Shown: piece by piece, positions 24,839 through 56,034 of the stretch | How positions within the stretch are numbered: position 1 is the stretch's first letter | Layout: each line of letters begins with the position of its first letter | DNA from: an uncultured bacterium | GTDB lineage: Bacteria; Patescibacteriota; Gracilibacteria; Absconditabacterales; Absconditicoccaceae | Length of the DNA stretch: 64,000 bases | Direction of reading: 5' to 3' | NCBI GenBank assembly: GCA_937872535.1 | Contig: CALMTC010000011.1 | Location: 1-64,000, forward strand | Program-made: the position numbers and the translations under genes | Notes under the pieces: model-generated | What the model was told of the DNA's origin: nothing | Database searches by the model: none | Seen by the model: the letters and a program-made list of their open reading frames with translations, nothing else

Positions 24839-25696
24839 TCATTCCATCACTTTTTGAACCACAGTAGCAAACGATGAATCCATATCAGCAAATTTTTCCA
24901 TCAAGGTGACTCGCCTATTTTGGAGAAAATAATCTGACATATAAGAATGAAAACCATCGGTCAATATTTTAGAAGATTGATACAAAGAAACAGTTTCAAC
25001 ATAATCTACTTCTCTCTTATAACGATCAAAAGCCATAGAATTACAGCGGTTTTTAATAGTATTGCTATTCGTAACTCAAAAACCAAGACTCGTAAAAGCT
25101 TCATTTTGAACAATACAAGAAGCAGCAGCACAAACCTGTAAATACCTATTAGCAAGTCAAGCCTCAGAAATCGGTTTCAAAGAAAAATTTGAACAACCAA
25201 TCTGAGAGCCATCTTTAAATAAATTTTCTGGTTTTCGGTACTTCTGAAAATAAGCAAATATTTGCTCTGGTTTACTTCATTCAGCACTTGTTGCTAAATC
25301 TGTTATAGTATTTCTTCGTTCCATTCATCGAGAATTTAAAACAAGAGCATCATAAGAAATACGAGGATCTCCATCTAATTTTCTAAATCCCACATCTATC
25401 AAATGATCAAAGAAATATGGTGACTCTGGTACTTCTGAAGGCAAATTATTACTATCCGCACATTGATTCTTACCAAGTTTTTCTTGACAACAATAAGACC
25501 ATAAATGAACAAAAGCAACCTCTAAATCGTTTTGAGAATAAATTTGGGAATAGCGAGAAACCAGAGAAGAAGGTAAGTTAATTTTTCCTCATTGAACAAA
25601 AGTCGTTACAAGATTACAATCAGAAGTCTCCTCTGCTCTCACAAAAGACATCGACAAAACAACACCCCCTATCACCAAGACTAATTGCCTGATCAT
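24839..25696 (-). CDS. Secreted Cys-rich hypothetical protein (second gene of the operon)
   Basis: A 285-residue protein with a signal peptide (MIRQLVLVIGGVVLSMSFVRA) and several cysteines in the mature part (SDCNLV, WSYCCQEKLGKNQC, GCSNFSL, CAAASCIV). Disulfide-bonded and extracytoplasmic by inference. Its start overlaps the end of the giant gene by 16 bp, so translation is probably coupled. TGA glycines are scattered through it. No known domain seen. Confidence 0.72.
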
Positions 25697-28600
25697 ACAA
25701 GAGATTTTGCATCAAAAGTGATTGATAAAACCTGACTTCATCACAAATTTGTAATACGATAAAGAGTACTATTATTTTGATAACCATAAGTTCAATGATA
25801 CTGAGTGTGATAAGGAGCTGGAACATACAAAGATCATTGAGATCAGATATACAACTCACAATCACCATAAGTTTTCTTGAGACAAGATCATCCATCAAAA
25901 GGTCAGTAAACCTGTCAACTAAGAGGCTGTAAACTGTATTGGTTATCAAGAATCTGAAGAGGATTCAATCCAGCCAAATTTTTAGCTTGAAGTTGTATAA
26001 TAAATATAACCTTATTATCTATTTTGTCAAAAATTTGGACTGTAGGATAATAGCTTTCAAAAGACATTCTAGTTTCCAAACGAAGCTGATAAGCAGGGTT
26101 AATAATAATTTGAGTAGTTTTACCATCAATAGTAACCATTTCATCACCATTTTGAGCATACAAAACAATATCCTTACCAAGATCAAAAACTCTTCCAGTA
26201 GCAAAAAGTTGGTTTTCTTTCACAGAGAAAAGAGAACGAGAAATTCATAAATCTACACCCGTCAAAGTTTTCCATACCCCATTTCTCAATCTTTCATATT
26301 TTACAGAACCAGTGTCTATATCTTGAGAGAGTTTACTAACCAAGGAGCCAAATTCACCATTTTCAAAGTTAACATCAGTCAAACTAAGCATAGGAGAATC
26401 TATAGTCAGAGTAACTTTTTGCTTCTCAATATTACCAGCAAAGTCTTGAGCCGAAAAGATATAATCACGCTTTTGTAAACCTGTAAAAAATAATCCAGTC
26501 AAAGAAATTTCTCCACCCTGTCCAGAAGCGACAAGAGAACCAGAATATTCTATCCAGCTTTTTTCTACAGCCACGTTATCAGACCAAACAGCATTCAAAT
26601 CATAAGCTGTATTGATAAATCATTTCAGATTATATCATTGAGAAACTAATTGATTAGTTTTTATCCTAAATAGATTTGCTTGCAAAATAGGTCACTGATC
26701 ATCAGCAGCTATTTGCCTTCAAGCTACGATTTGTTGAGACCAAGGTCAATTTTTTTCAAACCTGACAAGCTGCCCATTATTTGAATAAACTGGCTTCAAA
26801 GGAGCAATTTGTAAATAATATCGCTTTCTATCAAGATCTTCAAGAGCAACTCAAACAGTTTCCAAACCAGAATCAAAAACCTTTAAAGAAATAATTTCCC
26901 CATCAGCTTGAAGACTACTTATAGTTTTATCCAATTCCTGAGGAAGCAAAAGACGAGCCTGATCAGATCCAGTAAGCGACGGCAACACAACAACAAAATT
27001 TTTATCCAATAATCATGGAGATACAAAATTTAATTCCTGCTCTTTATCATGGAAAACATCTACTCTTTCAACCAATCTAATAACATAACCATAATTGTTT
27101 CCATCATGAGACCAAGAAAAAGAAAGAGTATCAGCATTTTGTCATTTCATTGCAAAATTTTTCACCTCCCAGGTTTGGTCGTAAATCTTGACTGATAATC
27201 AATTAAATGAAGCATAACCATCATCAACTAAATCTTCCAAATCCTCTAAATCACGCAAAGATGGTAATCCATAAAAAGTTGAAGAAAAAGTATTTTGACC
27301 ATAGTTAAAATTTTGATCAGCATATTTAACATAAACATTATTTGAATCTCGCATCACTAAATCATTTTTCTGATCTTTATTCACATCACTCAAAAAGTTA
27401 TTTTCTGCAATTTGTTCAACAAAAACTGATGAGTCGACAACATTAGTAAATGTATCAATTACTCAAGTTACAAAGCCTCCTCCACTCAATGGAATTTGAT
27501 CCAAACCAGTACTAGGAACAAAAATTCCATTCACATACTGAGCAAGATCAATACCAAAACTAGATTGTGAAGAAGCTGAAGAGATAGTTGAAGAAGTCGT
27601 AGTAGCTCACTGAGCCAGTAAAGGAGCTTGCTGATCACCATAAGCGATCAAAGCCTGATGAACATCACGATCAAGTTCAGAAACATAAGTTTTTGCCTTC
27701 TGATAAGTTCCATCATCCATAGAAAGCTGCACAGCACTATAGCGAGAAAGAGCAGCTTTATAGCCAGAAACCATCTGAGCATTGAGTTCTAAATATGTCT
27801 TTTCAGGATGAGGTTGATTCAAAAGATCTAGTGTTTTATCCTTTGTAGTAAATAAAGGAGCAGAATAGTTTTTTTCTTCATCATGATCAGCTACTAATTT
27901 GTTTTTTTGCAAACCATTCAAAAAGTCATCATAAGATTTTTTAATAGTTTGATTAGTTTCAGAAAGATTTTTTTGATATGTTCTTACATCTTCAGCAAGA
28001 GTCTGATAAACACGAGCCACTCACTCTCTATTTGGTTCGACATCACTTTGGTAGTTCACTTCGTCCATCAAAGCTTTCAGTTTATTAGTTTGAGCCTGTC
28101 ATTCGACCTTAGTAGCCAAGATTTTAAGTTCTTTTTTCAGAGTATTTTTGACAGTTTGATAATCATCATTTTTACCAGACTCATAAAGCGCCCCATAATC
28201 AAAACTCAAATCATCAGAATCATATTTACCAGGTTTGTAATCAAAACTAGTAATATTAATATCAACATTTTGTTGTAAAGGATCTTGTATTTGATCTTGA
28301 TAAAACTTATTGAGATTTCTAGATCATTCATTTATTTTACTTTCCAAAATTTTTCAAGGCTTTTCAGTTCGTTGATTCACCCCATCTGCAATACTTTTTA
28401 TCACAGCATAAACTTGATCAAAATTAAATCTTAAATTAACAAAAGTATCTACTCTGATGTCCATTCACTGCAAAGGAGTTGGATTTCTTGTAATTTTTAA
28501 ACTATCGAAAGGATTCACTTCCCAAGTCCTTTGAGTAAGTTGTTCAATTTTTGATTTCACTCATTTTTCTCAAACAAGTCCGATATTTCATTTCATAATA

Positions 28601-31600
28601 CAATAAATTGTTCCCAAAAATTCGAGTACTTTGAGAGAGATATTGATACTTGGAGTAATTTTGGGAATTTTTGGTGGAGGTGGCAATGTTGGCAAATTAA
28701 TATTTATAGACGGCAAAAAAGAAGGTAATTGAGGAAGATTTGGAGGTGTTGGTAAAATAGGCAAATCAGGTATAGAAACAGATGGCAAATCCAAGAAAGG
28801 AAGATCAATAGTTCACAAGTTTAGAGTAAGTAAATCTATAGTTACTTGAGGAGGTTCTGGAAGATTTGGCACTCTTGGTAATGGTATAGAACTTGGAACA
28901 AAATTAAATTTAGGGAGCAAGACATCCATCCCCAAATCCATCTTAGAAAAATCAAGATAAATATTTGGTATTTTGATAGGAGGAATTGGAATCACTGGGA
29001 GATTAATACAAAGCATACTAAGAGAACAAGCATAAGAATCATAGTTATCATTTTTACACTTCGCACATTTACTTTGTCGATTCGTAGAAAAATCAATAAT
29101 AGCTTGCCATGTTTTAAAGATACCAACAAGCAAAATAATTGTATCAACATACTGTTCAAATCTTCTAGCATTGATATCAAACCATCTATTGAGATGAGAA
29201 ACTATTCATTCAAGAATATCAGTCAACTCAGTCAAATATCTATCATAAATATGAATCCAATCATAAAGTTTAAGAGGAAATTGTTTATATTGTTCCAAAA
29301 CTTTCATATTCTGCTTGATCACTCTCATCAATTGCTGGGCATTTCAAAGTGTATTAGTGAAATAATTAACATAATTAGAAAATCTATCAATACAACCCTG
29401 TCTACTAAAATCAGTTGGTTCATTAGCACATTTATTAGGGATATTAATATTTTTTGCAGATTGAGAAATTTTTTCATTAAGACAAGAATTTTGTTTTTTC
29501 TTATCAGTAGATAGGAGGCGACATTGTAAGACTCCTTGTTGAGATCATTCAAGTTTAGCCAAACTAATTTCTTTGGTACAGATTTTTCTATCGATACTAG
29601 ATTCTGGAAAATTAGCCTTACACTGCTCCAGAGCAGCCTTATCAGTAGCATTATACAGATCAAGCCCAAGTAAACCTAAAACATTAGCTCATAGATCAAG
29701 CCAATTATCAAGAATCACTTCATTTCTCTTTATCCAATTATCAAGAAAAGCAGTATATCTGACGATATCTTCAGAATAAATAAACGGAATAGTAACAGTC
29801 ACATCTCTGGTATTCATATTCACCAAAGGTACTTCTTCAAACATTCTTGAAATAGCATCAAATGGATTTGAAACTTTATTTCATCGATTAGTAAGCTGAG
29901 CCTGTTGAATAAGATTATTTTTTGACCAGTTCATTATTTTTTCAGCAGGCTTACCTTCAAGATTATTTTTTCTATTGATTTGAATATCAGCCTCATTTTT
30001 AGATTCATCCATCAAATTTTTTAAATTATCAAGACGAAGAGAATCAAAACCTTCAGCCACTTGAGAAAAATCTGGGAAGTAGACAGCAATAGTCATACTA
30101 GACATATTATTCACGATATATTTTATTTGATTATCAAGCCATTGTTGAATAATACACTTTGGTAGTCATTTTACATCACCAGCCAATATTTTCAAAGTAG
30201 CAGGCTTTCCACCATTTAAAGTAACTGGAGTTACATCAGCATCTCTGAGTGAAGTTCTTTTGACTGGTTGTTTATCAATCATAAAAAGTCAGCCTCATAC
30301 AGTATTTGAAGGAAGAGAATTATTGTAACCAATATTATTTGGAGCTGGAGAAACGACATCAAAAGGACTTTGTTTTTTTGTTTGACTACCAAGAGATAAA
30401 GAAGGATTAGTATCATACTCATCAATATTTTTACAAACACCAATTTCTGATAAATCTTTTTGCCAATCATAAATCTGATTAGCATCAGAATCTCAATTAT
30501 CATTTCCACAATTACTAGGAAGAGAAAGAGCTACCACAATACAGTTTCCAGCTATATTCCTAAACGGCTGAGGAATATTTTCTCCAACCTTCATAGGCCC
30601 AAGACACAAAGCAACTCCAAGTCCCATAGTCAAAGTAGGAGAAAGATAGAGTCTAATCATAGAAGGATATTGCCCTCCAGGAGCCCAGTAAAATGAGTCC
30701 ATTGGAGATTTAAGTCACCAAGGAAAAGGAATAGGACCAGCAGGAGTAACCAAAGTACCAGGGAAAAAGAAAGCAGGCAATCACTTATCAGGCATCAACT
30801 TACATCCAAAAAGATTGAAATCTCAAGGAGACAAAAATGCCATATTAAAAGGCAAAGGCAATCCTCCACAGCTATTTTTTCAGATCTTAAATCCGTTACA
30901 CAATCACTGCAAAGTTTTTTGCAATCAAGCCTCTATTTTTTCATTAATATCATTCAAAAATCCAAAAGAAACATTCAGTGATGCAGCTCAGTTATTTTGA
31001 AAAAGATTCGTCAAACTAAACTGTTCCAAAACACTACTAATTCAAGGCATATTAGTAAGAGACTGCTGTGCAATAGAATTATTAAGACCCGACATAAAAT
31101 TATTTTGAGCCTGTTGAGAATTATTTTGCAATGAATCAGTATGATTTTTTACAATATTTTGCAGATTAATAAAATTTTCAAGATAATTTCTTACATTCAG
31201 CTGATAATGTCCTATAAACTCAAAAAACATCTTCAAACAACTATCAGTAAGAAAAATTTTTATATCTGGATAAATATCCGTATCAATTTTTTTCACATCA
31301 ATTCTAACTGTCTGCGTCGGCTGATATTCCAATTCATAAGAAAAATTTACATCTTCTCACTGCTTTATCGGAAGGTTATCAATCATAAATTCATAATCAG
31401 TTCAAGGAGTCAAAATCATTTTTGAACCAGAATTTGTTGTTCCACGATCAAAAGATTTCATAAGACCATCATCGTCCACATCAATAATCCAAGGTCATTG
31501 AATTCTATCAAACAAAGAAAGTGTCGTATTTTGTTTTCCTATGAGATGAAAAGTAACACGAACCTTATCTCACTGTGACAAAATACCTCAGTTAAGATCT

Positions 31601-34600
31601 TTATAAATCTTATAAGCTTCGACAGCATCATTTGTTTCTAAGCGTTTTATGGGAACATAACGAACATCATCCAAACTCATAGCTTCATAAAAAGGTTTTT
31701 GATTGATTGGAGATTCGACATATTTCATTAGCTGACTAGCTCAGCTTTGCACCAGAGAATTTACATTAAACTGTCCAACAGCATTCATCAACGAACTACT
31801 AGCGACATTTTGAGAAAATTGTTGTATCTCATCAGCACTCACAGTACCATCATTATTAAAATCCATAGAAGGATCTTGAGCTGGTCAGCCAATAGATGGT
31901 AGTTGATGAGAAATAGGATTATTAGCTTGTACTCCATTAGAATCAATAGGCTGCAAAGGCTCAGTTAATCAAGCCCAGCGAACGAGACTATTATCATAAA
32001 TTTTTTCTCAATCAATAATTTTAAGTGAAAAATTTTTCACTACTTTCACTGCTCCAGCTTGCCTACTTTTCCATCCAGCATCACAGCCAAAAGAATCTGT
32101 ACTCAGATAATGTGGTCCAGCAGAGCTACTACCACCATAAAAAATCTTAATAGATCAATCTGAATCATTGGTAATAATATCAAGCTTATCATCCAAGTCC
32201 ATATCCTGGAAAAAAATCTGATAAACCTGACTCAAATCTTGCGGTCATCATGGAACATCAAGACAAACATTAGTTCCATCGACATCAAAAATTCACTCAT
32301 TATTTCTATAAACTCTTAGTTTTTGAGCTGGAGTTTTGACAAGCAAATCAGGATATCCATTCCCATCAACATCTCAGACATTCAAATCTTCAATTCCATC
32401 AGCAATAAGCAAAGCAGGTCCCAAATCTGTAGAAGAGACATTCCCTCCATACTCTTTGAGAAATTTCACCGTACCATCATTATAAATAATAGCCAAATCT
32501 TTTTGTCCATCAGCATTAAAATCTATCTCTTTGACCAGATGAATAGTTTTTGTACTATCAGAATAAATTGTTTTTCCAATTCATCAGTCAAAATCAGTAC
32601 TAGTAATCGGATCATTACTATCAATTCTCTTCAAAGCTGGATCACCAAAATTAACGACAAATTCAGATCCAAAAGCAAGAGAAGATTCTCCAACTGGTTG
32701 ACCAGCACTAAAAGCAGTAATATTTTTATACTGAGCTTGAAAAGCAATATTTTTCTCAGGATCTATACTATCTTGAATAGAAGAAACCGTATCAGAATCA
32801 GCAGCCAATACCACATCAATCAAAGAAATTCCAACACCACGCATACCATTAGTACTACCTTCAGCAAAAACATCAATAACACTATAAACAGAATGATCAA
32901 AAATCTGAACAAGATTATCTTTCTGATCTCCAATAAAAGTATCATCTCTGGAAAGCAACAAAGAACCTATTTTTTTACCTTCAAAAGAAACATCAAATAA
33001 ACTATGTCCTAAAATTTTTTCATGTGAATATAAAATTTCAACTCCTGGTTTGAGAAAATTTTGAGAAAAATCGACATATGTTTCACCATTGATAACTACT
33101 TTATATCATTGCAATAAATTCGTCTCTATCTCATCATCAGTAAGTTCTGGAACATAAACCACACTATTACTCAAGAAATCATTGAGAGTCACATTTTCAA
33201 GAAGTGGTTTTGATCTAAAGACATAGTCAGAATAAGATCAAAGAGCAGCACGCCCAACTCAGTCAATAAGATAAGAAAATCCAGAAGAAGAAACTTCCAG
33301 AAAAACTCTCTGATCAGGAGAAACATCAAGAGTAAGATTATTAGCTATCACAAAAGGAGTTTGTCGAACATGTGACGGATCAACAAGCATCGTCGTCACA
33401 GCCAACAATTTTTCAGAACGAGTAATCATCTCTGTCACTACTCCGCTATAGTCAGAAAAAAATCACCACATATTTCCTCGATCTGCACCAAAAAGATTCA
33501 GATACATAACATTGAGTTTATCAGTTGGCAGAAAATTATTTTTTACAAATAGTGATTTATATCATGGTTTTTGATTTTCGAGAGCAACTCATTTCAGATA
33601 AGCATAAATATATCACTTCCCTCCAGGAGCAAGACCTTGGAATGGAAAAGAAGTTTGTCACTGTTGAACAGGAACACTAAAAAGTGTAGATCCACTAGAT
33701 GAAAGCGATCCAATTAGTCAAATCTGAAGATCAACAGGATCAATAATTTGATTCATCCAAATATCTTTGACAACCACCAAAGCAGCTTGATGAGATCAGA
33801 TTTTCATTTGATCAGAATCAGTAATCACCTGAACAATTTTTGGAGAAGAAGGCTCAACTACAACAGGAATAGAAATATCCTGACTACCTGGAACACTGAT
33901 AACAATCTCATCCTGCCCAGCCTGAAAAGAAGGATAGAAATATACAGTAACAGTACCATTAGATGCCAAAAAATTAGTATGAGAAACAAAAGTTTCTTGC
34001 ACAAAAGATTGGATAGCACCACTAACAATCTGTTCAACTTGACCAGTAGCAACAGTTCACGGCTTCAAAAGAGCGTTCTTAGTTTTTACAGAAACTTGAG
34101 AATAAATTCACTGCCCAGCCAAATCTTTCACATCAATACTCAAAGCCACCAAATTATTTTCAGCAATCTGAGAAAGTCATTGAGAATCGACACTCACCAA
34201 ATCAGAACCTGCTTCAGGAAGTTTATAACTAAGCTGATTCACAGCTACACCTCCACGCGAAACACGGACCGTTCCATCAACAAGCTGAATAGTTTTTTGA
34301 TTAGCTGGCAATCAGTTAACAAATCAACTCGTACTTGGTTGAATAGAAATCTGATCATAAGAACTATTTCCACCACTAAGCGAACTACTATCATACAAAA
34401 AATATAAATTTTCAAACGAATCAACATCAAAAGAACTATAAAAACTACCATCATATAAATTTTTTCCACTGGCTACTGCTACAAAATAATTATCAGAAAC
34501 TCTAGAAATAGTATTTCCTCGTTTATCATAAGCATTCACTACAAAAGGCAAAGATGCTCATCTCAGTATTTTAGAAGAAGGACTTACCATAGAAATAGAA

Positions 34601-37600
34601 TCTATAGCTCAAGGAACAATAGAAATAGTTTGAGGTAAAATAATACAAGCCTGTCCATCACAGATTTTGACATCCAGCATCAGTAATCAAGCTTTCTTAG
34701 TAGCCAAATCCAGATCAAGTAAGAGCGGCTGAGAAAACAAATCAACATCGCTAAGAGAATAAGATTGCTGACAAAGATTTTTAGAATTGATAACTATACA
34801 ATTATTTCAAGTAGAAGAAAAACTAATATCTACAGAGCCAAAATCTTGACTACCAGCATTGAGTCCGAGAGAAAAATATTTTTTCTGTTCATAAGATTCT
34901 ACAGGTTCTACATAAAAGTTATCAGCGACTTCAAGATCAGGCACCAATCCATCAAATTTTTGCATAAAGCGAGGATTGATAAAATCCCAAATACCTTGAA
35001 GCTTATTTTTTTGAACATCAGAAAGACTCAAAAGTAAATTTTCATTATCAGATTTTGCCTGAGCAATACGACTCCATTGATCAGAAAACTTACCAATATT
35101 TAAAGCATAGTCTTGTATTTCTGATCATAAATTTTGAGGATTTTGATCTACTCAACGAAAAATACTTCCCAAAGCTTTGATAGCATCAGTTACAAAAACT
35201 GGTCCTTGAGAATTTTTATAATCAATAGTCAGAATTTGAGTTTTTAGAGTTTTTTTAAGCCAACATTTTAGAGCTTCTGGCCACTTATCCAGAGAAACAC
35301 TTCAGTCAGCGTCTAAAGAACATTCTGAACGATCTTTTTGAATTTCTAGATCTAAATCGTCATTAATTCTAGGAGCTACATCTTGATCATAACGAGCTTG
35401 AGCAGATTGAATTCTTTGAATAAATGACGGCACTTGAGACTCATCCTGAATATAATCAAATCCATCAGAATTTAAATAAGCCAATTCATATCATCAACTT
35501 TGATAAAAAGCATTACGCAAAGCTATTGTCCCAGAAGACAATCAATCATTAAGACCATACTGAAGATATCTCATCACATGAGAAATTTTTGGATTAAGAT
35601 CAAAAGATTGTTTTTTTGCTTCTAAGTCATCAATCACACCTGTCGATGAAGTTTTTTGAGACCATCAAAGATTTTGATAGTACAAAAAGTAAGCAGCGTT
35701 ACTGATAGTTTCTTCACCGAGAGTATCAATAAAATAATCCACCGGCATCAAATTATAAGTACGATTTGGTGTAGCCAAAGGATCAGACACAGAAAGAAAA
35801 TCAAAAGCAGATTGATTTTGAGTATAAAAATTTTGGCGTTTCGCTTGCTGTTGAGTAAGAGATGAATTATAAAGAACAACTTTTTTTCTTAAATAATCCT
35901 TAATACTAGAGTTAATTTCATCTGGAGTTTTAAGAGTCTGTACCAAACCATCTCTTTTAAAAACCTCTACATTATACAAATTTGGATAAACAAATTTCAC
36001 TAAGTCTCAACCAATTCATTGAAAATTAACATATCTAACACTATCAACTGGTCTATCACTAGTATACAAATTCATACCAGTTATTTGAGCAACCGTAGGA
36101 GCTTTCATTTCATTTCTCGTATCAAAAGTTTTATAATCATACTCATAAGTATTTTTATAATTTCATCAAATTGTTATAGTTCCTCCAAGAACAGAAACTT
36201 GAGCACACTGATCATCTCTTACTGTTTGATTAAAGGAAGTTCAGTTTACTTTAATAGTTACCTTTTCACCATTATCAGGAAATTTATTTTTAAAGATATC
36301 AAAAAATTCAACATCACTATAGGGAATTCTACCATCTATTCTCTCTTGAGGAAAACAATATGAAGCAACTACTTCTTCCCCTGGAGAACTAAAACTTAAA
36401 GTCAAAAAATCAAGCGGGTCATTAACTGTCTTATAACCATACTGTAATTTTATTCTCTGGATACTGGAAAAATCTTTGTAGCCCAAATATGAATAACCAG
36501 TAGTAACTTCACCTCAGACAGTAAGTGGTCCATCGAGAGAAGATACTGTTCTTGAAGGTCAAATCAATTTAGCTCCAGCGATATCGTAAATCGGCCCTCC
36601 AGCCAATCCAGCAGGTGAACTAGTCACAGAAGGATTTCGAGTATATTTATAATCAAAGTTTTTTAGCGAAAGATTCCCATCAAAACCTGTGATATTAAGA
36701 GGAGTTACTCCACCCCAATAATACCAAAGAAATTTATCCATAGCCATAACTTGAGATTGACTACCATAGTCACTAGAACATTCAGCAGGTGGAGCTGGAG
36801 TGAAAGATCACTGATCTCTAATCTGACACTCTTGATAACACTCATTGAGTCAGTTCGGATCTTGTCTCGAATTATAGACAGCAATATCATCTTTAGATTT
36901 ATCAAAATTATATCACTTATGAGCTTCGATTTGTCTATCATTTAAGCCATAAGAAGCACCTACAGACCAAAGAGAAGAATCAGTTTGAACATCACTTCCA
37001 GATATAATATCTTCGCCAGTCAAAACATCCAGAGAAGAAAAATTTTTATAACTACCTCTATAAATCGAAAGATCCTGAACACTATTTACATCAGAAGCTC
37101 TTTTTCAAAAATAAAAGTTTTCATATCTTCCTTCTAAAAGCAACTCTCAAAAAGTACAAGCTATAAAATTACTTCCCTGTACTCTATTTTTATATTTTTC
37201 ATAAATCGTCAGAATAGGAATTTTCATAAAATATTTTTCCTGCTGAATTTTATCATCCAAAGCTTTTTCAAGCTTCATCGAAATTTCAGTAAGTGGCTGA
37301 GTAAAATCCTGCTCAGCTCAAAAATTTCATAATAAAAGTGCATCTTTAGAAACAATTTTTTCCAGATGCGAATCAAACTGCTTATATCTTCCACCAGCTA
37401 AAATATTGTCTCTAGCACGGCTCAAGGATAAAGTTCAAAAATTCTCAGAATAAGGTTTTACAAGTTCAGAAACCATTTTTTTGAGAAATAAAGTCGGTGT
37501 AGCTTGTGATGAAGTGGTAGCTGGCATCTGAGAAGCAGCAGCATTCATCGTAGTCAAATACTGAGCAGCCATCTGACTAGTTGGATCAGTTCATTGTGTA

Positions 37601-38406
37601 TCAATAGAATTCAAATCAGTCATCAAAGCCGAAACTCCATCACCACTAGGTCACTTAAAATAATCAGGAATCAAATTAGTAAATCTATGAAATCAAACAT
37701 CTTCAGAAAAAAGAAAATTATGAATATAGTAAGGTAAATTAGCAGAATTAAAACTTTTTTTAAGTTCTACAAAATCATCATACCAAATAGCTTTATCAAT
37801 AAAAGCAGCCGGCTGAGCAGCATATTTTCTTAGTTTTTCAAAATAATCAAGATAAGCATTTGTTCAGCTTCCAAGTTGAATCAATCAATGCCAAATTTCT
37901 GGTACACTATAAGGTTTATCATTATATTCAAAAAACTGGCTCTTTTCATCGTAAACATATTTTTGATCACGAAAATCTACATAAGGAAAAACTGAAGGGA
38001 AAATAAATCAATTTTTTTTAACAACAGGGAGTGGCATATCACCTATCAAGACAATACCGACTAAATCACTAGTTTTATCTTTCACTCATTCAAAATACAT
38101 ATTTTCCAAAATCTTCACAATATCTTTTGCCTTAAAGTTTTTTTTATCCAAAGGCAATACCAAAGCTTTTGAATCAGAAAACTGAGATTGAAGATAATTT
38201 CTTGCATACCAAACTATTTCTTTTTTCAAAGATAGATCATCATAAAGATCAGCATCAACTACTACTGCTATAAGATGGTTAGGTGATATAGTTGGTTCAG
38301 CATTAGCAAATTTTGGCACAAAAAGAAATACATTAAGTAGCAAAGAAGCCACATAAATAGCCAAAAATGAGCTTATAGTTCTTTTATCAGAGAAAAAATA
38401 AAACAT
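25681..38406 (-). CDS. Giant secreted surface protein, about 4,241 aa
   Basis: One frame stays open for 12.7 kb when TGA is Gly; all the standard-code fragments share the same phase. A signal peptide ends FANA-EP near residue 37. Residues about 40-150 (VVVDADLYDD ... IVLIGDMPLPVV ... FPYVDF) loosely recall the fold of C25 peptidases, but no catalytic dyad is evident. Residues about 1950-2310 hold VCBS/FG-GAP calcium loops (DFNADGQKDLAI, DVDGNGYPDLLV, DMDLDDKLDII) and an EF-hand DFNNDGTVSADE. Another loop, DVNKDQKNDLVM, is near residue 3672. A Pro-rich rod (residues about 3135-3270) and Ig-like strands near 3940 follow. A giant adhesin or contact structure is the likely role. The start could be GTG at 38409. 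Confidence 0.85.
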
Positions 38407-38441
38407 CACCCATCGACAAGAAAAAATAAAATCCTACAATG

Positions 38442-38610: not shown

Positions 38611-39588
38611 ATGAACACACAAACTGCAACAAATATAGCAAAAACAGCAGCAGATGGTACAAGTAGCGTCGTAGAAAATAACACTTGACGATTAGAACAG
38701 TATATCGGCGATGGACTTTTTGCATTTTTTGTAAAATTTGCAGGAGTTTTTGTTGTTGTCGTAGTGATGATTATGATTTCAAAAGCCATAGCAAGCATCA
38801 TAAGAAAAAAAGTTATTGAATCGAGCATACTGGAAAACAAAAAATCAAGCGATAAAATAGGAGATCTTATAAGCGATGTTGTATTTTATAGTCTCGTAAT
38901 TTTCTGCATATTTATAGGTTTTGAGCTTTTATGATTTGATGTAAGTTTATTGCTGTGATGAATCTCATTTTGAATATGATTAGCTTTCAAGGAAATACTA
39001 GGAAATATGATTGCTGGAATTATGATCTTATCAACAAAAGAAATTAAATTATGAGATATTATTGAAGTTCAAACAGATTGATGAGTTTTTTGAAGAATTG
39101 AAGAAATCACTATTAGATATACCACAATCAGAACATTAGATTTAAGACAAGTTATCATCCCAAATACTACTCTAATCACAGTTCCTATAAAAACTTATAG
39201 TGCTGAAGAAACTGTGAAAGTAAAAACAAAAATCAGAATTCACTACGATTCAGACCTAAAAAAAGCAGAAAAAGCCATAGTAGATTGATTAAATTCACTA
39301 GAGTTTACAGTAGATAAAGACAAAACAAAAGCTGTGCTCACAGAATACTGAGACAGCGAAATAATTATGACATGAATATTTTTCTTCAATCCAAATGCTT
39401 GATTATTACTAGAATATGCAGTCTGAGAAGCAAATCACAGAGTAAGAGATTACCTAGAACAAAATTGAATTGTCATACCATATCCACATGTTACAGTCAC
39501 AGTAGATCACAACGATACCGATCTATTATGAACTATGGTATATGCAAGCAAAACTTTACATAAACAGTCACCATGAACAACTCACTAG
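38611..39588 (+). CDS. MscS-family mechanosensitive channel (1)
   Basis: A 325-residue small-conductance mechanosensitive channel. Two or three N-terminal transmembrane helices end in the pore-lining TM3 motif LLLGGISFGIGLAFKEILGNMIAGIMIL (two segments, residues about 115-142), followed by the beta domain GDIIEVQ, with RYTTIRTLDLRQVIIPN, and the C-terminal alpha/beta domain. It releases solutes on hypo-osmotic shock. More than ten glycines are TGA, including pore glycines, so the gene is invisible under the standard code. The stop TAG overlaps the next gene by 16 bp. Confidence 0.9.
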
Positions 39589-40481
39589 CAAACAATCAAA
39601 TCATAGAATCTTCACGACAAATATTGGAAAATCCAGTAATCAATTTTATGATAACACTTTTATCTGCTGCTATATCAGTTTTCATTTGATATATCATCAT
39701 AAACTACATCACACAAAAAGTAAAACAAAGAATAGGAGAAAACTCACTAGAAGATAACGACGAATATCAAACAAAAATAGCAAATTTGATAGGCACAATA
39801 ATTTTCAATATTTTAATGGTTTTCAATGTCCTCCTCTGATTTCAAATACTTTGATTCAAAGTAGGAGTTCTCATGGGATGAGTAGCATTTTGAATCTGAT
39901 TTGCAATGCAACAAATACTAGGAAATATGATTGCTGGAATCATGCTCATAACAAATTCAAAATTCAAAATAGGAGATATTATTGAAGTAAAATCATTAAA
40001 AGTATTTTGAAAAATCCAAGAAATAAAGATCAGATATTCGATCATAAAAACCTTTGACAGAAGAAGAGTAATTATACCAAATTTACAATTTATGAATGAG
40101 TCAATCAGAACATTCAACTCAGAAAAAATAATTAGAGGTTACATAGATTTTTATGTTTGATTCAAAGATAATCTAGAAAAAGCAAAACAAATAATAAAAG
40201 ATGAAATAAACAAACACGAATACACTATAGAAAAAGAATACACCAAAGTAGCTATAAGTGAATTTCGAGAAAGTGGAATTACATTAAGAGCATTTTTTTA
40301 CTTCAATCCCAAAGGTTGAAAATCTGGATACATCATAAAATCTGAGCTAAGAAAATCGATACCTGAAATTTTATACGACTATAAAGAAATAAACTATCCT
40401 TACAATCATACTTCCATCAGCGTTGACCATAATGACCAAGATATTTTAGAAAGTATAAACATTCTGGGTAAAAATATATAA
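39573..40481 (+). CDS. MscS-family mechanosensitive channel (2)
   Basis: A 302-residue paralogue of the preceding channel. The pore motif is VLMGGVAFGIGFAMQQILGNM (two segments), followed by KIGDIIEVKSLKVFGKIQEI and RRVIIPN. The start ATG lies inside the end of the first gene in another frame, so the two are translated from one message and may be coupled. The shared pore motif but otherwise low similarity suggests an old duplication. Ends TAA just before a bidirectional terminator. Confidence 0.9.
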
Positions 40482-43856: not shown

Positions 43857-44804
43857 ATGTTTGATCAAAAAAAATTAGAAAAAATTCTCATAGTAACAAA
43901 AGACATCAAAGACATTAAAATTCAAGGAGCAACAAATATAGCAAAAGAAGCCTTCAAGATAATAAAATCAGAAACAGAAAATCAGTCTTTCAGTTCAAAA
44001 GAAGAACTTGAAAAATTTCTACGAGAATCATCAGAATTACTGATAAACGCAAGAGAAACTGAACCTATGCTGTTCAATGGCATGAAATATGCAAGATTCT
44101 CGTTTCAAAAAAACAAAGAAAAAAGTTTAGAAGAGCTCAAAAAAATTATTATTGATTCTTTTGATTTTTTTCTCAATTTGATAAAACAAGAAAAAATACA
44201 GAGAGCTGAAATAGGTTCAGAATTAGTAAAAGATTGAATGACAATTTTCACTCATTGCCACTCTAGTTCTGTCGTAGAGCTTCTTTTAAAAGCAAAAGAA
44301 AAAGAAAAAAAATTTATAGTATACAATTCAGAAACAAGACCTCTTTTTCAAGGAAGAAAAACATCAGCAGAATTAGTTTCATGAGGAATAGACACAACGA
44401 TGGTCGCTGACTGAGCCTGAGCATATCTGATCAATAATTCAGTAGAAAAACACGTAAATATTAACATGATTTTTTTAGGAGCTGATGCCATAAAATTAAA
44501 TGGAGATGTCATGAATAAAGTAGGTAGTTTTGCTATAGGGCTATCAGCATTTCATTCTCACATTCCGGTTTACATAGTAGGAAGCTTAGCCAAAATAGAC
44601 ACAGTAGACACAGTAGACATCGAAATGAGAGACAGCAAAGAAATTCGACCAGAAGCACCTGCATGATTAAAAATAGCAAACTATGCTTTTGACACGATAC
44701 CAGCAGAATTTATCACAGGAATAATAACCGAATTTGGAGTCATAAAACCATCTGATTTAAAAAAAACACTAGAAGAAAAATATCCTCGAATGACAGATAA
44801 ATAA
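43857..44804 (+). CDS. Ribose-1,5-bisphosphate isomerase (eIF2B alpha-like family)
   Basis: A 315-residue protein of the eIF2B / methylthioribose-1-phosphate isomerase superfamily. The N half is helical; the C half has the Rossmann-like active site with THCHSSSVVELLL (catalytic Cys region), FIVYNSETRPLFQGRKTSAEL, DGAGAYLI and the conserved GADAIKLNGDVMNKVGS. Two AMP phosphorylase-like genes follow directly, the classical partner in the archaeal-type AMP pathway, so isomerisation of ribose-1,5-bisphosphate to ribulose-1,5-bisphosphate is the most likely reaction. RuBisCO is not in the window. Several glycines in the catalytic half are TGA. Confidence 0.85.
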
Positions 44805-44836: not shown

Positions 44837-46354
44837 ATGAAAAACAAAAAAAATTCATTCTATGCAAAAACAAAAAACATAGATATTATAGACTGAGATG
44901 AGCTTATTGCAGTCATTAGTAAAGAAGATTGAGAAAAGCACTGAATGCATGCAATGGACAAAGTAGCTCTTCGACATAAGTGAAAAGAAATTGTACTCAA
45001 TGTCGATCTATCAAATCACCTTGTAAGACCAGGAGAAGTATGACTATTTGAAGATGTATATAAAAAATATAGCATTCCAGAAAACGAATCTGTAGAGTTA
45101 AAATATGCAAGAGCAAATCCGACATCTATAGAAGCAATCAGAAAAAAACTTTTAGGAGAAAAATTAACAGAACAAGAGATAGAAGCGATAGTTGATGATA
45201 TCAAAAACAATAGACTATCAGACACGCATGTGACTTATTTTACAGCCTGTGGTTTCTTTTATAAAAGCGTCAACAATGAGCTAGTACGAATGACCAAAGC
45301 TACAGCCAAATCAGGAAATTGTTTTAATTTCTGAAAAAAAGCAGTCAGTAAATATTGTATAGGTTGAGTTCCCAGCAACGAAACTAGTATGATTATAATT
45401 CCTCTGCTCGCATCATTGTGAATCACAATGCCAAAATCATTTTCAAAAGCAATCACTTCACCAGCCGCAACTGGCGAGTGTGTCAGTGTATTGATGAACA
45501 TTAAATTCACTCCAGATGAAGTAAAAAAATTAGTTAAAAAAAACAACAGCTGTCTAGTGCGATCAGAACCTCTCAATTTAGCGCCAGCAAACGATAAAAT
45601 CATAAAAGTATCAAATGCAATTTCAATGGAACCATATTCCAGAATGATCAGTTCCATAATGGCAAAACAGCATGCAATGGGAATCACAGATTGCTTAATA
45701 GACATACCAGTTTGATCAACAGCAAAAATTCCGACACTAGAAATTGGAAAAAGAATAAAAAGACACTTCAGCTATATTTGAAAAAAATTAGGAATGAACA
45801 TGAAAGTGCTTTTAACAGATGCTGATCAGCCAGTCTGAAAATCAATCGGTGCAGCACTTCAAGTCAAAGAAGTATTAGAAATATTACAACAGAAAAAAAA
45901 CAAAAGTGAACTACTAGAAAAAAAAGCTCTCTTCTTAGCCAAAGAAATCCTAGAAATGATCTGATTTGCACACTGAATCAAAGCACAAGAAATAGTTGAA
46001 GAGTGACTAAAATCATGAAAAGCTCGAAAAAAAATGCAAGAAATCATAAAAATGCAATGAGGAAGAAATTGGAACATTAAACCAGACGAAATAAAAATCT
46101 GAGAAAAAACAAAAGAAATTAAAGCCACAAAAAATTGAGAAATAGACGAAATAGACATGAAACATATAAATACCATAGCGAGAACTTTAGGTTGTCCATT
46201 TGATCTAAAATCATGAATAGTACTTCATTTCAAAAAAAACAACAAATTCAAAAAATGAGAAATATTAATAACACTTTATAGTTCAGATGAGAATAAACTA
46301 AAAACAGCAATTAAAATGTTAGACAAAAAAAATATATATTCATTCAAAAAATAA
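44837..46354 (+). CDS. AMP phosphorylase paralogue, probably inactive
   Basis: A 505-residue member of the AMP/thymidine phosphorylase family, aligned along its whole length with the next gene. It keeps structural landmarks (CIGGVPSNETSM, KAITSPAATGEC, MISSIMAKQHAMGITDCLIDIPVG), but the KHCIGG phosphate/base motif is KYCIGG, VPGNET is VPSNET, the glycine loop KHGGGLFWGGG is replaced by KNNSCLVRSEP, and TDARQPVG is TDADQPVG. It uses 20 TGA glycines by my count against 10 in the next gene. Likely a regulatory or structural subunit, or a decaying copy that is still open. Confidence 0.82.
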
Positions 46355-46361
46355 TAAAAAA

Positions 46362-46374
46362 TTTATATTCTGAT
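46362..46374 (+). promoter_or_regulatory. U-rich leader element before AMP phosphorylase copy 2
   Basis: TTTATATTCTGAT, 8 nt before ATG 46383, inside the 28-bp gap between the two paralogues. Confidence 0.45.
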
Positions 46375-46382
46375 TTAAAAAA

Positions 46383-47918
46383 ATGAAAAATCAAAAAACA
46401 ATTAAAAAATCTATAAAAAATGTTCTATTCGCAAAAGTAAAACCAATAGACATAACAGATGGAGAAGAATTAGAAATAGTAATAAACGAAAAAGATGCTT
46501 TATTATATGGAATTACAAGTCACGACAAAGTCAGTGTAGTTTATTCTGGAGGAGAAATAGTTTTGAATGCTAGTCTCACCAATTCAGTAGTAACCCAAAA
46601 AACAGTATGATTAATGAAAGATGTAACAGACAAATACGGCATCAAAGATGGGGAAATGGTAGAAATTTTTTTCACAAAAAGTAGTTCATTAGCTGTTGAA
46701 TCAATAAAGAAAAAACTACTAGGAAAAAAATTAAACTATAAAGAAATGTATGCAATTATAGACGATATTGCGAAAAACAAGCTATCAGATACTATGATAA
46801 CTTATTATGTCTCTTCAAGTTATTTTTACAAAACAACAGATGAAGAGCTATATCTTACAGCAAAAGCGATGGCAGAAACAGGAAAAACAATAAAATTCCC
46901 TGGGATCGTAGTAGATAAACACTGTATTGGTGGAGTACCAGGAAACGAAACTACTATGATCGTAGTACCAATCATCACTTCACTCGGTTACACTATGCCA
47001 AAAACTTTTTCAAAAGCAATTACTTCACCAGCCGCAACTGGCGAATGTGTAGAGCTTTTAATGAATATTTCTTTTACAGAAAATCAGATTAAAAATATTG
47101 TAAAAAAACATTGATGAGGACTTTTTTGGTGATGAGGTTTAGCATTAGCACCAGCAGACGATAGAATTATCAAAGTTTCTTATCCACTCTCTATGCAATC
47201 ATATTCAAAAATGATCAGCTCTATCATGGCAAAAAAATATGCAATGGGAGTAACTCACTGTCTCATTGACATTCCAATGGGACCTACAGCAAAAGTTACA
47301 AATAAAAAAGATGCAAATATGCTCGTAAAAAAATTCGAATTTGTAGGGAAAAAACTAGGAATGAAAATGAATATCCAAATCACAGATGCTAGACAGCCAG
47401 TTGGAAGTTGAATCGGAACAGGACTACAAGTAAGAGAAGTACTCAGAATTTTACAACAACATAGCAATAGACCAAAAGATCTAGAACTAAAAGCTATAAA
47501 ACTAGCAAGCGAAATAATCAAAATGACTGGAATGGCAAAAGGAAAAAAAGCAGAAGAAATAGCTTGGAAACAGCTAAGATCATGAACTGCACGAAAAAAA
47601 TTTCAAGAAATAATGAAAGCTCAATGAGGAAAAAATCTCACTATAAAATCAGAAGAAATTGAACTTGGGAAAGAAGCATACGAGCTCAAAACAAATAAAA
47701 ATTGAGTAGTGAAACAAATAGATATGAAAATTTTAAACAACATAGCGAGAACTTTAGGTTGTCCATTTGACAATAAAGCTGGAGTTTATCTGAATCAAAA
47801 ACTCAATGCAAAAGTAAAAAAATGAGATACGCTCTGTACACTTTATAGTAGCGACAGCAATAAACTTAAAATGGCACTAGAAATGTTGAAAACTGATTCC
47901 ATCTATGAAGTCAAATAA
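46383..47918 (+). CDS. deoA: AMP phosphorylase
   Basis: Phosphorolysis of AMP (or another nucleoside monophosphate) to base and ribose-1,5-bisphosphate. A 511-residue archaeal-type enzyme: N-terminal extension of about 85 residues, then VVDKHCIGGVPGNETTM (residues about 177-193), KAITSPAATGEC, the glycine loop HGGGLFWGGG (four of its glycines TGA), LAPADDRIIKV, SSIMAKKYAMG and TDARQPVGSGIG. All expected substrate-contact motifs are present, unlike copy 1. The upstream isomerase would take its product. The symbol follows the family name used for this enzyme in archaeal-type annotation. Confidence 0.9.
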
Positions 47919-53009: not shown

Positions 53010-53714
53010 ATGGAAGAAATAAAAAAACTAAAATGAATATTAACAGATCTTGATGAAACACTTTATTCATATAATCCAGCAAATAAAGCTTGATATAAAG
53101 CTCTATTTAGTCATATAGAGCAAACAGAAAATAAAAAAACAATAGAAATAGAACACGCTTTAGAAGAAGCCAAAAATATAGTGAAAAGAAATTGTGAGCA
53201 CCAAGGAGCTTCACACTCCAGACTACTCTATATTCAATATATGGTAGAAAAACTACTTTGAAAAACAGACACGAAAAAAATAATAGAGCGAAATAAAATT
53301 TATGACACAGCATATTTGGAAGCAATGACACCATTTCCAGGAATGATCGACTTTTTAACTCAAGCAAAAAAAAACTGATTAAAAATCTGTATCATAACTG
53401 ATCTAACTGCCGAAATTCAATTTAAAAAAATAATAAGACTTTGACTAGAGGATATCATAGATTTCATAGTCACTTCAGAAGAAGCTGGTGCTGAAAAACC
53501 AGCCACAAAAAACTTTGAGATGGGACTAAAAAAATGTGGACTAGAAAAATCAGAAGTCTGTATGTTATGAGATAGTACGACTACAGACATACCTTGAGCA
53601 CAAGCCGCATGAATCAAGAAAATTTTTCATAAAGTGATAGAAAAAAAATGAGAAACTCCATGAGCCATACAGTATGAAACTTATCAAGAACTTAAAAAAA
53701 TATTTAACTTTTAA
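53010..53714 (+). CDS. HAD-superfamily hydrolase
   Basis: A 234-residue phosphatase-like protein. Motif I LTDLDETLYS (nucleophile Asp 13, Asp 15), a helical cap at residues about 25-105, motif II CIITDLT, motif III Lys in EKPATKNFE and motif IV MLGDSTTTDIPGA. The arrangement matches cap type 1 phosphoglycolate/ nucleotidase-like hydrolases. Substrate unknown; its neighbours suggest a phosphorylated sugar or nucleotide. Several TGA glycines. Confidence 0.85.
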
Positions 53715-53841: not shown

Positions 53842-54534
53842 ATGACACTTCAAGATGAAAAATTTATGAGCAAACAATGAGAAAAATGAGTTCTGGATAA
53901 TAAATCACTAAAGTATAAATGCCATTGGGAAAAAACTCCAGCAAACATTCCTGAAGATATATTTCAGGAACTTAATAGACGAAGAAGAATCTTATACAAC
54001 ATGAAACTTATCTGAATCTATCCAAACAATATCTGATATGGAAATGTGAGTATCAGAAAACCAGGTACGAATCAGTTTTATATCTCAGGAACATCAACAG
54101 GTAGATTGACAGAGTTGACACCTGAACATTACTGTCTAGTTTCAAAAGTAGAAGCAAAAGATAATCAGCTTTACTGCGAAGGACCTATTGAAGCATCAGC
54201 AGAATCAATGACTCATTCAGCCGTGTACGAATCAGATAGCACTGTAAATGCCGTCATTCATATTCATAATTTCAGCACTCGAAGTACATACATGGACAAA
54301 GTACCAACAACAAACAAATCAGTACCATATGGAACTCCAGAAATGTCAGCTGAAGCAGCTAGAATGTTTAGAGAAACAAATGTAAAAGAAACTAAGTTTT
54401 TTGTAATGGGAGGCCATGAAGATGGAGTAATGTCTTTCGGAAAATCAATGGATGAAGCAGGAAGAATGATCGTAAAATATTTTTCTCAGATAGAAAATCC
54501 AACCTATGCTTGCGATGGTAAACACCAAGACTAG
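53842..54534 (+). CDS. Class II aldolase/adducin family protein
   Basis: A 230-residue zinc-dependent aldolase-like protein. NNIGYGNVSIRKPGTNQFYISGTSTG at residues about 60-88 (phosphate pocket), the catalytic Glu in EASAESMTH, zinc His pair AVIHIH (about 139-141) and third His in MGGHEDGVMSFG. This is the layout of fuculose-/ribulose-phosphate aldolases. The carbonyl substrate cannot be named; a pentulose or triose phosphate would fit the neighbouring pathway. Followed by a strong terminator. Confidence 0.85.
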
Positions 54535-54815: not shown

Positions 54816-55526
54816 TTAGATTACCCCAGAGTAATCAGCTTGAGAATTATGAAGCATAGGATTATAAAACTTAAAAAGAAGAGAAACAATTTCAGCTGTA
54901 TCAAGTCTTTCTACATCCATCCCCAATGAACTAAGACCATCAACAACAAGAGAACATCTTGTATCCAAATATGTTTTATTTTTTACAAAAGACCTATATC
55001 TGCTAATAATTTTTTCAGGAGTTTCAGTCGAATCTAATACAGCCATAAATTGAGAAAACCAAGATTTACTAACACCAGAATTATCATCTCAATCACTATA
55101 ATAAGGCACTACAACATAAAATTCTTTAGTATAAATGAGACCTTGCTTCAAATCAATTGTTTCCAAAAATTGCAAATAATTATCACTCTGTGCCTTCAAA
55201 ACAGCATTCTCTATAAGAGAAACTTTTTGTCTCATATAGCCAATATACTGGGAAAGATCAAGATATGAATTACGAATCAAGATTTGAACAGGAAATTCTA
55301 ATCAATTTAAAAATCTTCTATACTGCTCTATAACTACCTCCTGTTCTTCAGCATTTTTTAAATCAAGATTAAGTCAAGAAACTTTCATAATAGCTCTAAT
55401 TGATCAATCTTTCATTAAAACAGTATTTCCTCTAATTTCAGAAAAAGGAAGCATCGTTTCAGTATTAAAAATTTTATCTCAACTTGATTTTATAATAGAT
55501 TGTTTTTCTTTTGTCAGAGAAGCCAT
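54816..55526 (-). CDS. Stand-alone TraC/VirB4 N-terminal-like domain protein
   Basis: A 236-residue cytosolic protein without signal or membrane segment. Residues 25-100 (SEIRGNTVLMKDGSIRAIM, then EEQEVVIEQYRRFLNGLEFPVQI) match the pattern of the N-terminal domain found in TraC/VirB4-type secretion ATPases of candidate-phyla bacteria. No Walker motif follows: the protein ends at TAA 54816, so the ATPase part is absent or encoded elsewhere. It follows two VirB2-like pilins in one operon (24 bp gap). The family call rests on my reading of the pattern only. Confidence 0.6.
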
Positions 55527-55550
55527 GTAAGTAGTCTATAAAAATAAAAA

Positions 55551-56012
55551 TTAGATAACACTCACTTGAGTAAAAACAGTAAACAAATAGCTAATAATAA
55601 ACCAGCTTAAAAAAAGAATCCCAAGTGCAATAGCTGTACCTCTCACCATCTGCTTCGCCTTATTAAATCATTTTTCCTGTTCAGCAAAAAACATACCATA
55701 AAACCCATAAATCAGTACAATAACAGCAATAAAACTAACAAGTCATAAAAAATAATTAACTACATCTCTAACATAAGCACTAGCTGGTTCATCTCCATAG
55801 GAAGCTGGCAAAGGAAATCAAATTGCTTCGAGAAGTATACCAATAATACTGTTAGAATTATCTACGACAACATCGTTAAAAACTTCTCAAATCTGATGGC
55901 TAGTATTAGCCTCTTGCGGACTAACTTGCACAAACGGAAAAGGTGTTTGTTGCATAAATCAAACTCACAAAAAACCGAAAGAAGCAAACAAAATGGAAAT
56001 CAAATATTTCAT
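55551..56012 (-). CDS. VirB2/TrbC-like pilin (2)
   Basis: A 153-residue protein with a signal peptide (MKYLISILFASFGFL), a polar stretch and two transmembrane helices: VVNYFLGLVSFIAVIVLIYGFYGMFF and MVRGTAIALGILFLSWFIISYLFTVF (each given in family order), joined by the basic turn EQEKGFNKAKQ. This is the two-helix plan of VirB2/TrbC pilins. Its start lies 22 bp after the stop of a paralogue. Confidence 0.75.
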
Positions 56013-56034
56013 AGAAATCACAGTAAAAAATAAA

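Follow-up and report, generated by a model that had tools for sequence, protein, structure and literature searches.

Two NMP phosphorylase genes lying in tandem appear, from their alignment, to have lost complementary residues of the active site, each departing from the outgroup state at different places. Since both duplicates depart from that state, it would oversimplify matters to call one of them broken and the other standard, and the residues newly fixed in the group of the first gene (Tyr164, Asn243 and Glu256 in Thermococcus kodakarensis numbering) point to a pocket that is in use rather than drifting.

Sequence of the Tandem Pair

The window, by which we mean the whole 64,000-nucleotide stretch analyzed, covers positions 1–64,000 of the forward strand of contig CALMTC010000011.1 (GCA_937872535.1; genome handle G000) and is read under code 25, in which TGA encodes glycine. 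This code, taken together with the lower-glycolysis genes and how often RuBisCO occurs in the family, suggests a member of Absconditabacteria (SR1). Copy 1, an a-type NMP phosphorylase paralogue, occupies 44837..46354 on the + strand (505 aa under code 25), and copy 2, a b-type NMP phosphorylase, follows after a gap of 28 bp at 46383..47918 on the same strand (511 aa under code 25). A first-pass annotation of this DNA had described a tandem phosphorylase pair with the frame of copy 1 intact over 505 codons, and we confirmed that both genes are open under code 25; they are open solely when TGA is read as glycine, with 20 TGA codons in copy 1 and 10 in copy 2. At this base composition, a 505-codon open frame has a chance of about 2e-15. 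The TGA share of glycine codons is unequal between the copies, at 20 of 32 in copy 1 and 10 of 39 in copy 2.

The two proteins are about 53% identical, and both align to T. kodakarensis 4ga5 from residue 3 to 483–484, N-terminal domain included. Both score above the cut-off of 434.6 for the NMP phosphorylase model TIGR02645 (449 bits for copy 1 and 488 bits for copy 2) and below the cut-off of 535 for the curated AMP phosphorylase model TIGR03327 (443 and 474 bits). AlphaFold models made from 4-row alignments were too poor for both copies (pLDDT 52.0 and 52.8, pTM 0.33 and 0.36), and residue roles were derived by aligning the sequences with those of the T. kodakarensis enzyme, PyNP and human TP. 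The nearly identical stretches of DNA that had been noticed between the copies are real: a run of 30 identical nucleotides (encoding IARTLGCPFD; P 0.002) and one of 23 (TSPAATGE; P 0.0005) each exceed those of 2000 codon shuffles, and 163 codons match where the shuffles give 141 ± 6. This excess suggests short gene conversion between the copies, and because of such patches the trees described below may be blurred, with copies 1 and 2 drawn together.

Active-Site Residues of the Two Copies

Of the 59 columns invariant in the b-type and outgroup rows, 48 are unchanged in copy 1 and 58 in copy 2. On the + strand, as are all the residues that follow, copy 1 has Ser171-Lys172-Tyr173 (45347..45355) replacing Asp162-x-His164, Ser243-Glu244 (45563..45568) replacing Gly234-Gly235, Asn252 (45590..45592) replacing Asp243 and Gln278 (45668..45670) replacing Lys269, with the His relay of Asp162, His164 and Lys269 reading Ser, Tyr and Gln. 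The acid at the Asp256 position is retained in copy 1 as Glu265 (45629..45631). In copy 2 the relay is intact, His180 (46920..46922) being the equivalent of His164, and it is the acid that has been lost, to Gln272 (47196..47198). Asp256 we take, from database annotation, to be the proton donor in the phosphorylase.

Most of these changes are common to a-type rows, where Asp162, His164, Gly234 or Gly235, Asp243 and Lys269 are lost. At position 164, 13 of the 14 a rows have Tyr, and all 29 b and 15 outgroup rows have His; 13 of 14 a rows have lost Asp162 and 12 of 13 have lost Lys269, and Asn replaces Asp243 in 13 of 13. Position 256 separates the three sets completely, with Glu in the 13 a rows, Gln in the 29 b rows and Asp in the 15 outgroup rows. 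Gly168, Ser194, Ile197, Thr198, Ser199, Thr203, Ser264, Lys268 and Lys288 are retained in every a row that covers them (14/14 for the tested Ser194–Ser199 positions and Thr203; 13/13 for Ser264, Lys268 and Lys288). The exception is the a-type protein of G016, which retains the His, Asp162, Lys269 and the glycines, yet has Asn243 and Glu256, and by its residues it looks like an intermediate. Two Berkelbacteria enzymes also carry Glu at position 256 with an intact relay, so Glu is tolerated there.

The first-pass annotation had called copy 1 an enzyme with lost active-site motifs, and all four of the motif variants that it named (KYCIGG, VPSNET, SCLVRSEP and TDADQPVG) are present, although two of the four changes do not concern family motifs. 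The replacement of His by Tyr in KYCIGG for KHCIGG is a genuine, family-wide change in the a-type. In VPSNET for VPGNET, the Ser that replaces Gly171 is private to copy 1 (1 of 14 a-type rows). As for the missing glycine loop (SCLVRSEP in place of GGGLFWGGG), the second GG, residues 234–235, is conserved in the family and its loss stands, while the first GGG is peculiar to copy 2. TDADQPVG represents no loss, as the Arg of TDARQPVG is itself peculiar to copy 2. Copy 1 is also altered at Asp162, Asp243 and Lys269, which that annotation had not noted, nor had it noted the lost acid at position 256 in copy 2.

The DKH and SKK elements of these proteins align with those of thymidine phosphorylases, which makes His164, Asp162 and Lys269 the counterparts of His116, Asp114 and Lys222 of human TP (matched by counting). 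In the excerpted text of PMC2719695, His116 of human TP contacts N1 and O2 of the pyrimidine, H116F and H116K mutants have no activity, and a relay of Asp114, Glu225 and Lys222 to His116 is cited. The Glu225 equivalent (position 272) is mostly Met or Val in the rows used here. By analogy with human TP, His164 would be essential in NMP phosphorylases.

Relatives, Phylogeny and Selection

Phosphorylases were searched for in 118 relatives and in 353 genomes of the class, 49 of the genomes making up the family. They occur in 30 of the 49 family genomes: 14 have the a-type (G000, G003, G013, G016, G020, G021, G029, G030, G032, G036, G039, G042, G044 and G046), every one of them together with the b-type; 16 have the b-type alone, and none has the a-type alone. 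Both genes are partial in G036, and in G042 the b-type gene is divided between two contig ends, whose pieces have identities of 82 and 92% to the G039 b-type. The a-type paralogue is common to five genera. No second full copy was found outside the family among the 353 class genomes, with two partial pieces each in G155 and G299. The genome_contigs database gave two distant relatives only and the viral_contigs database no matches. The first-pass annotation's adverse case, relatives with only copy 2 and a frameshifted copy 1, is found in its first half alone, as copy-2-only relatives exist (16/49) and no frameshifted copy 1 was seen.

In a 56-row tree the a rows group with a support of 88/65 and the b rows with 99/95; copy 1 joins the a-types of two other genera (94/83) on a long branch (0.71). 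Support for the a group was 75 in a 43-row tree, and overall the support for a single a clade is weak. A clade of copy 1 and copy 2 is not rejected by the AU test on the 43-row set (p-AU 0.09). A tandem duplication private to the window genome is nevertheless disfavoured, though the tree alone allows it, because the Tyr164, Asn243 and Glu256 of copy 1, like its missing Asp162, recur in the paralogues of other genera.

Ten pairs of relatives gave a-type dN/dS values of 0.05–0.21, nine of them at or below 0.11, and seven pairs gave b-type values of 0.07–0.16; these ratios are rough, since almost every pair has a dS close to 1 or higher. Divergence between genomes is 1.2 times as high for the a-type as for the b-type, with the a-type farther apart in 51 of 66 pairs. 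The a-type is under purifying selection in relatives, and selection on the window's own copy 1 was judged from these relatives and from its open frame. The part of the earlier view that describes copy 1 as a conserved open paralogue is upheld by the 14 family genomes (of 49) that have it, all with the b-type, and by purifying selection in relatives.

Linkage and Gene Order

The a- and b-type genes are linked in 5 of the 14 genomes: they are in tandem in G000 and G030, have one gene between them in G046, and share one cluster with RuBisCO between them in G029 and G020. In the other nine they lie on different contigs or 65 kb apart, though linkage could have been missed where contigs are short. 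G029 and G020 have the genes in the order isomerase, a-type, RuBisCO, b-type; G012 has isomerase, RuBisCO, b-type; and the window has isomerase, a-type, b-type. Identities also disagree between the two types, with 61% (a) and 78% (b) between G003 and G032, and 86.5% (a) and 74% (b) between G003 and G044. The scattered genes and discordant identities weaken the case for a strictly co-inherited heteromer, but not for a loose one.

Among nine genomes of two other genera, eight (all but G021) have a gene for a large protein of 750–1030 aa immediately upstream of the a-type gene and in the same orientation (loci L090, L091, L096, L097, L100, L103, L104 and L105). Profile comparison suggests that the large proteins in seven of these nine genomes, among them G021, are related (hhalign probability 95.7 between two groups), and those of G013 and G032 show no clear membership in the related set by the same comparison.

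Elsewhere in the window, a 4242-codon frame open under code 25 (25681-38409, − strand) perhaps encodes a giant surface protein like those described for Vampirococcus in the excerpt of PMC8080830. At 38611-40481 (+ strand), two tandem genes that overlap encode MscS-type mechanosensitive channels and are related to one another.

Possible Pathway around the Pair

A gene for ribose-1,5-bisphosphate (R15P) isomerase of the e2b2 type (43857..44804, + strand) ends 32 bp before copy 1. Equivalents of the catalytic Cys133 and Asp202 are retained, and the protein scores 181 bits against TIGR00511, below the cut-off of 314. Neither RuBisCO domain (PF00016, PF02788) was detected in the window genome, which is 98.76% complete in 23 contigs; an assembly gap is possible. 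RuBisCO is found in 27 of the 30 phosphorylase-bearing family genomes, and the other two that do not have it are 74 and 65% complete.

At 53010..53714 (+ strand), about 5 kb from the phosphorylases, is a HAD phosphatase gene whose best NCBIfam model is NF053830 (RuBP 5-phosphatase), at 166 bits against a cut-off of 330. We considered this protein as a specific RuBP phosphatase and downgraded that assignment, since the HADs of two RuBisCO-bearing relatives score alike (170 and 147 bits); against the plasmid database the HAD matched only generic HADs. A HAD fragment at a contig end in G016 lies directly before the a-type gene, which lends weak support to a link. Next in the window, at 53842..54534 (+ strand) and adjoining a triosephosphate isomerase gene, is a class II aldolase that we consider a candidate ribulose-1-phosphate aldolase. 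Its Aldolase_II domain scores above the Pfam cut-off and its Glu and His-x-His align with FucA, with no subfamily assignment obtained. Among the 353 class genomes the aldolase is full-length in the window genome only, with one other match of 28 bits over 99 residues; a sample of 379 genomes of the phylum gave five others, all weak and including the 28-bit one, and the plasmid database gave no match. A type IV secretion pilin-like gene and a short VirB4/TrsD-like gene adjoin the aldolase (54816-56021, − strand).

In haloarchaea, according to the excerpted text of PMC9700705, RuBisCO has no part in a route by which a HAD and a FucA-type aldolase turn RuBP into DHAP and glycolaldehyde, and NMP phosphorylase is present only where RuBisCO is. 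The window genome possibly has a RuBisCO-free nucleotide pathway of its own, which would run from NMP through R15P, RuBP and Ru1P to DHAP and glycolaldehyde; it stays a possibility because the HAD match is unspecific and the aldolase falls in no subfamily. We consider it improbable that the fuller version applies, in which RuBisCO was replaced by the HAD and a newly acquired class II aldolase to give an NMP-fed, CO2-independent route with the two NMP phosphorylases split one per base class. Our literature searches, mostly at the level of titles and the starts of abstracts, found none on duplicated or inactive AMP phosphorylases or on a bacterial RuBisCO-free form of the pathway. The missing RuBisCO beside an intact isomerase makes a bacterial pentose bisphosphate pathway without CO2 fixation testable.

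Possible Roles of Copy 1

Our tentative reading is that the two copies split NMP substrates by nucleobase. The intact genes, their co-occurrence, the purifying selection in relatives, the residue patterns and the gene order are observed; an active copy 1, a division of substrates and what position 256 does are inferred. A duplication would have been followed by complementary losses in the two active sites. The a-type would have lost the His relay (Asp162, His164, Lys269) while keeping the substrate loop and an acid at 256 (Glu), and may work through that acid, as expected for a purine leaving group; the b-type would have kept the relay while its acid became Gln, and may work through the His relay as pyrimidine phosphorylases do with pyrimidine leaving groups. 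The ribose 1,5-bisphosphate made by both would pass to the isomerase, whose gene precedes copy 1. The T. kodakarensis enzyme takes all natural NMPs (excerpt of PMC8376864), and by analogy this range could resemble an ancestral state open to such a division. Against the base split, genomes with a single copy manage with the b-type alone, and copy 1 is altered at additional sites of its own, Gly171Ser among them, keeping 48 of the 59 invariant positions. Since H116F and H116K kill human TP, the Tyr in copy 1 may also simply kill the enzyme. It is nearly as likely that copy 1 is a pseudoenzyme which binds NMP or pentose phosphate without cleaving it and regulates or scaffolds copy 2 in mixed oligomers, much like the regulatory or heteromeric partner proposed in the first-pass annotation. 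A conserved paralogue that has lost the equivalent of human TP His116 and two relay residues, keeps its substrate loop and is never found without the b-type (14/14 genomes) fits such a role, as do the multimers of more than 40 subunits formed by the T. kodakarensis enzyme (excerpt of PMC8376864) and the gene pairs that are adjacent in two genomes and close together in three. The case for a fixed heteromer suffers, however, from the genes lying apart in 9 of 14 genomes, even if fragmentation may hide some links, and from the a and b identities that disagree, and the retained acid at 256 and newly fixed residues are unlike a relaxed site.

A pocket that is reshaped yet conserved would also be expected if copy 1 had taken another substrate or direction, for example deoxynucleotides or the salvage of bases onto ribose 1,5-bisphosphate, and the apparent loss of RuBisCO in the window genome leaves the direction of the pathway open. 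We find this doubtful, as identical a-type changes occur in genomes with RuBisCO and nothing points to a given substrate. Decay of copy 1 into a future pseudogene of the window genome could explain its private changes at invariant sites (48/59 kept, against 58/59 in copy 2) and its long branch (0.71), but it is very improbable and we rejected it on the open frame of 505 codons (chance about 2e-15), the old paralogue in five genera and the low dN/dS in relatives. If the base split is correct, the pair would be a clear example from nature of an active site shared out between duplicates, His relay in one and acid in the other. The pair might then show how small, host-dependent bacteria widen or tune their scavenging of nucleotides, or else that pseudo-phosphorylases exist.

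Comparison with Known Systems

Both copies resemble the T. kodakarensis AMP (NMP) phosphorylase (PDB 4ga4, 4ga5, 4ga6) in their end-to-end homology, substrate loop, Ser264, Lys268 and Lys288, and differ from it in that copy 1 is without Asp162, His164, Gly234-Gly235, Asp243 and Lys269, and copy 2 has Gln for Asp256. They belong by sequence to the fold family of the pyrimidine-nucleoside and thymidine phosphorylases such as human TP, with the DKH and SKK elements, but they have an extra N-terminal domain and predicted nucleotide rather than nucleoside substrates, and copy 1 is without the His that is essential in human TP. The operon-like array of R15P isomerase and NMP phosphorylase, with lower-glycolysis genes nearby, resembles what is known of the AMP/RuBisCO (pentose bisphosphate) pathway in CPR bacteria and Thermococcales; unlike in that pathway, the phosphorylase is duplicated and diverged and no RuBisCO was found in the window genome. 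An R15P isomerase without RuBisCO and a HAD hydrolase beside a class II aldolase recall the haloarchaeal non-carboxylating pentose bisphosphate pathway as excerpted in PMC9700705, though this is a bacterium with NMP phosphorylase, and its candidate HAD and aldolase score below cut-off or are unspecific. Finally, copy 1 is like the prozyme of trypanosome AdoMetDC (excerpt of PMC5201418) in being a duplicate that lost catalytic residues and is conserved with its active partner; for copy 1, complex formation and activation would both be hypothetical.
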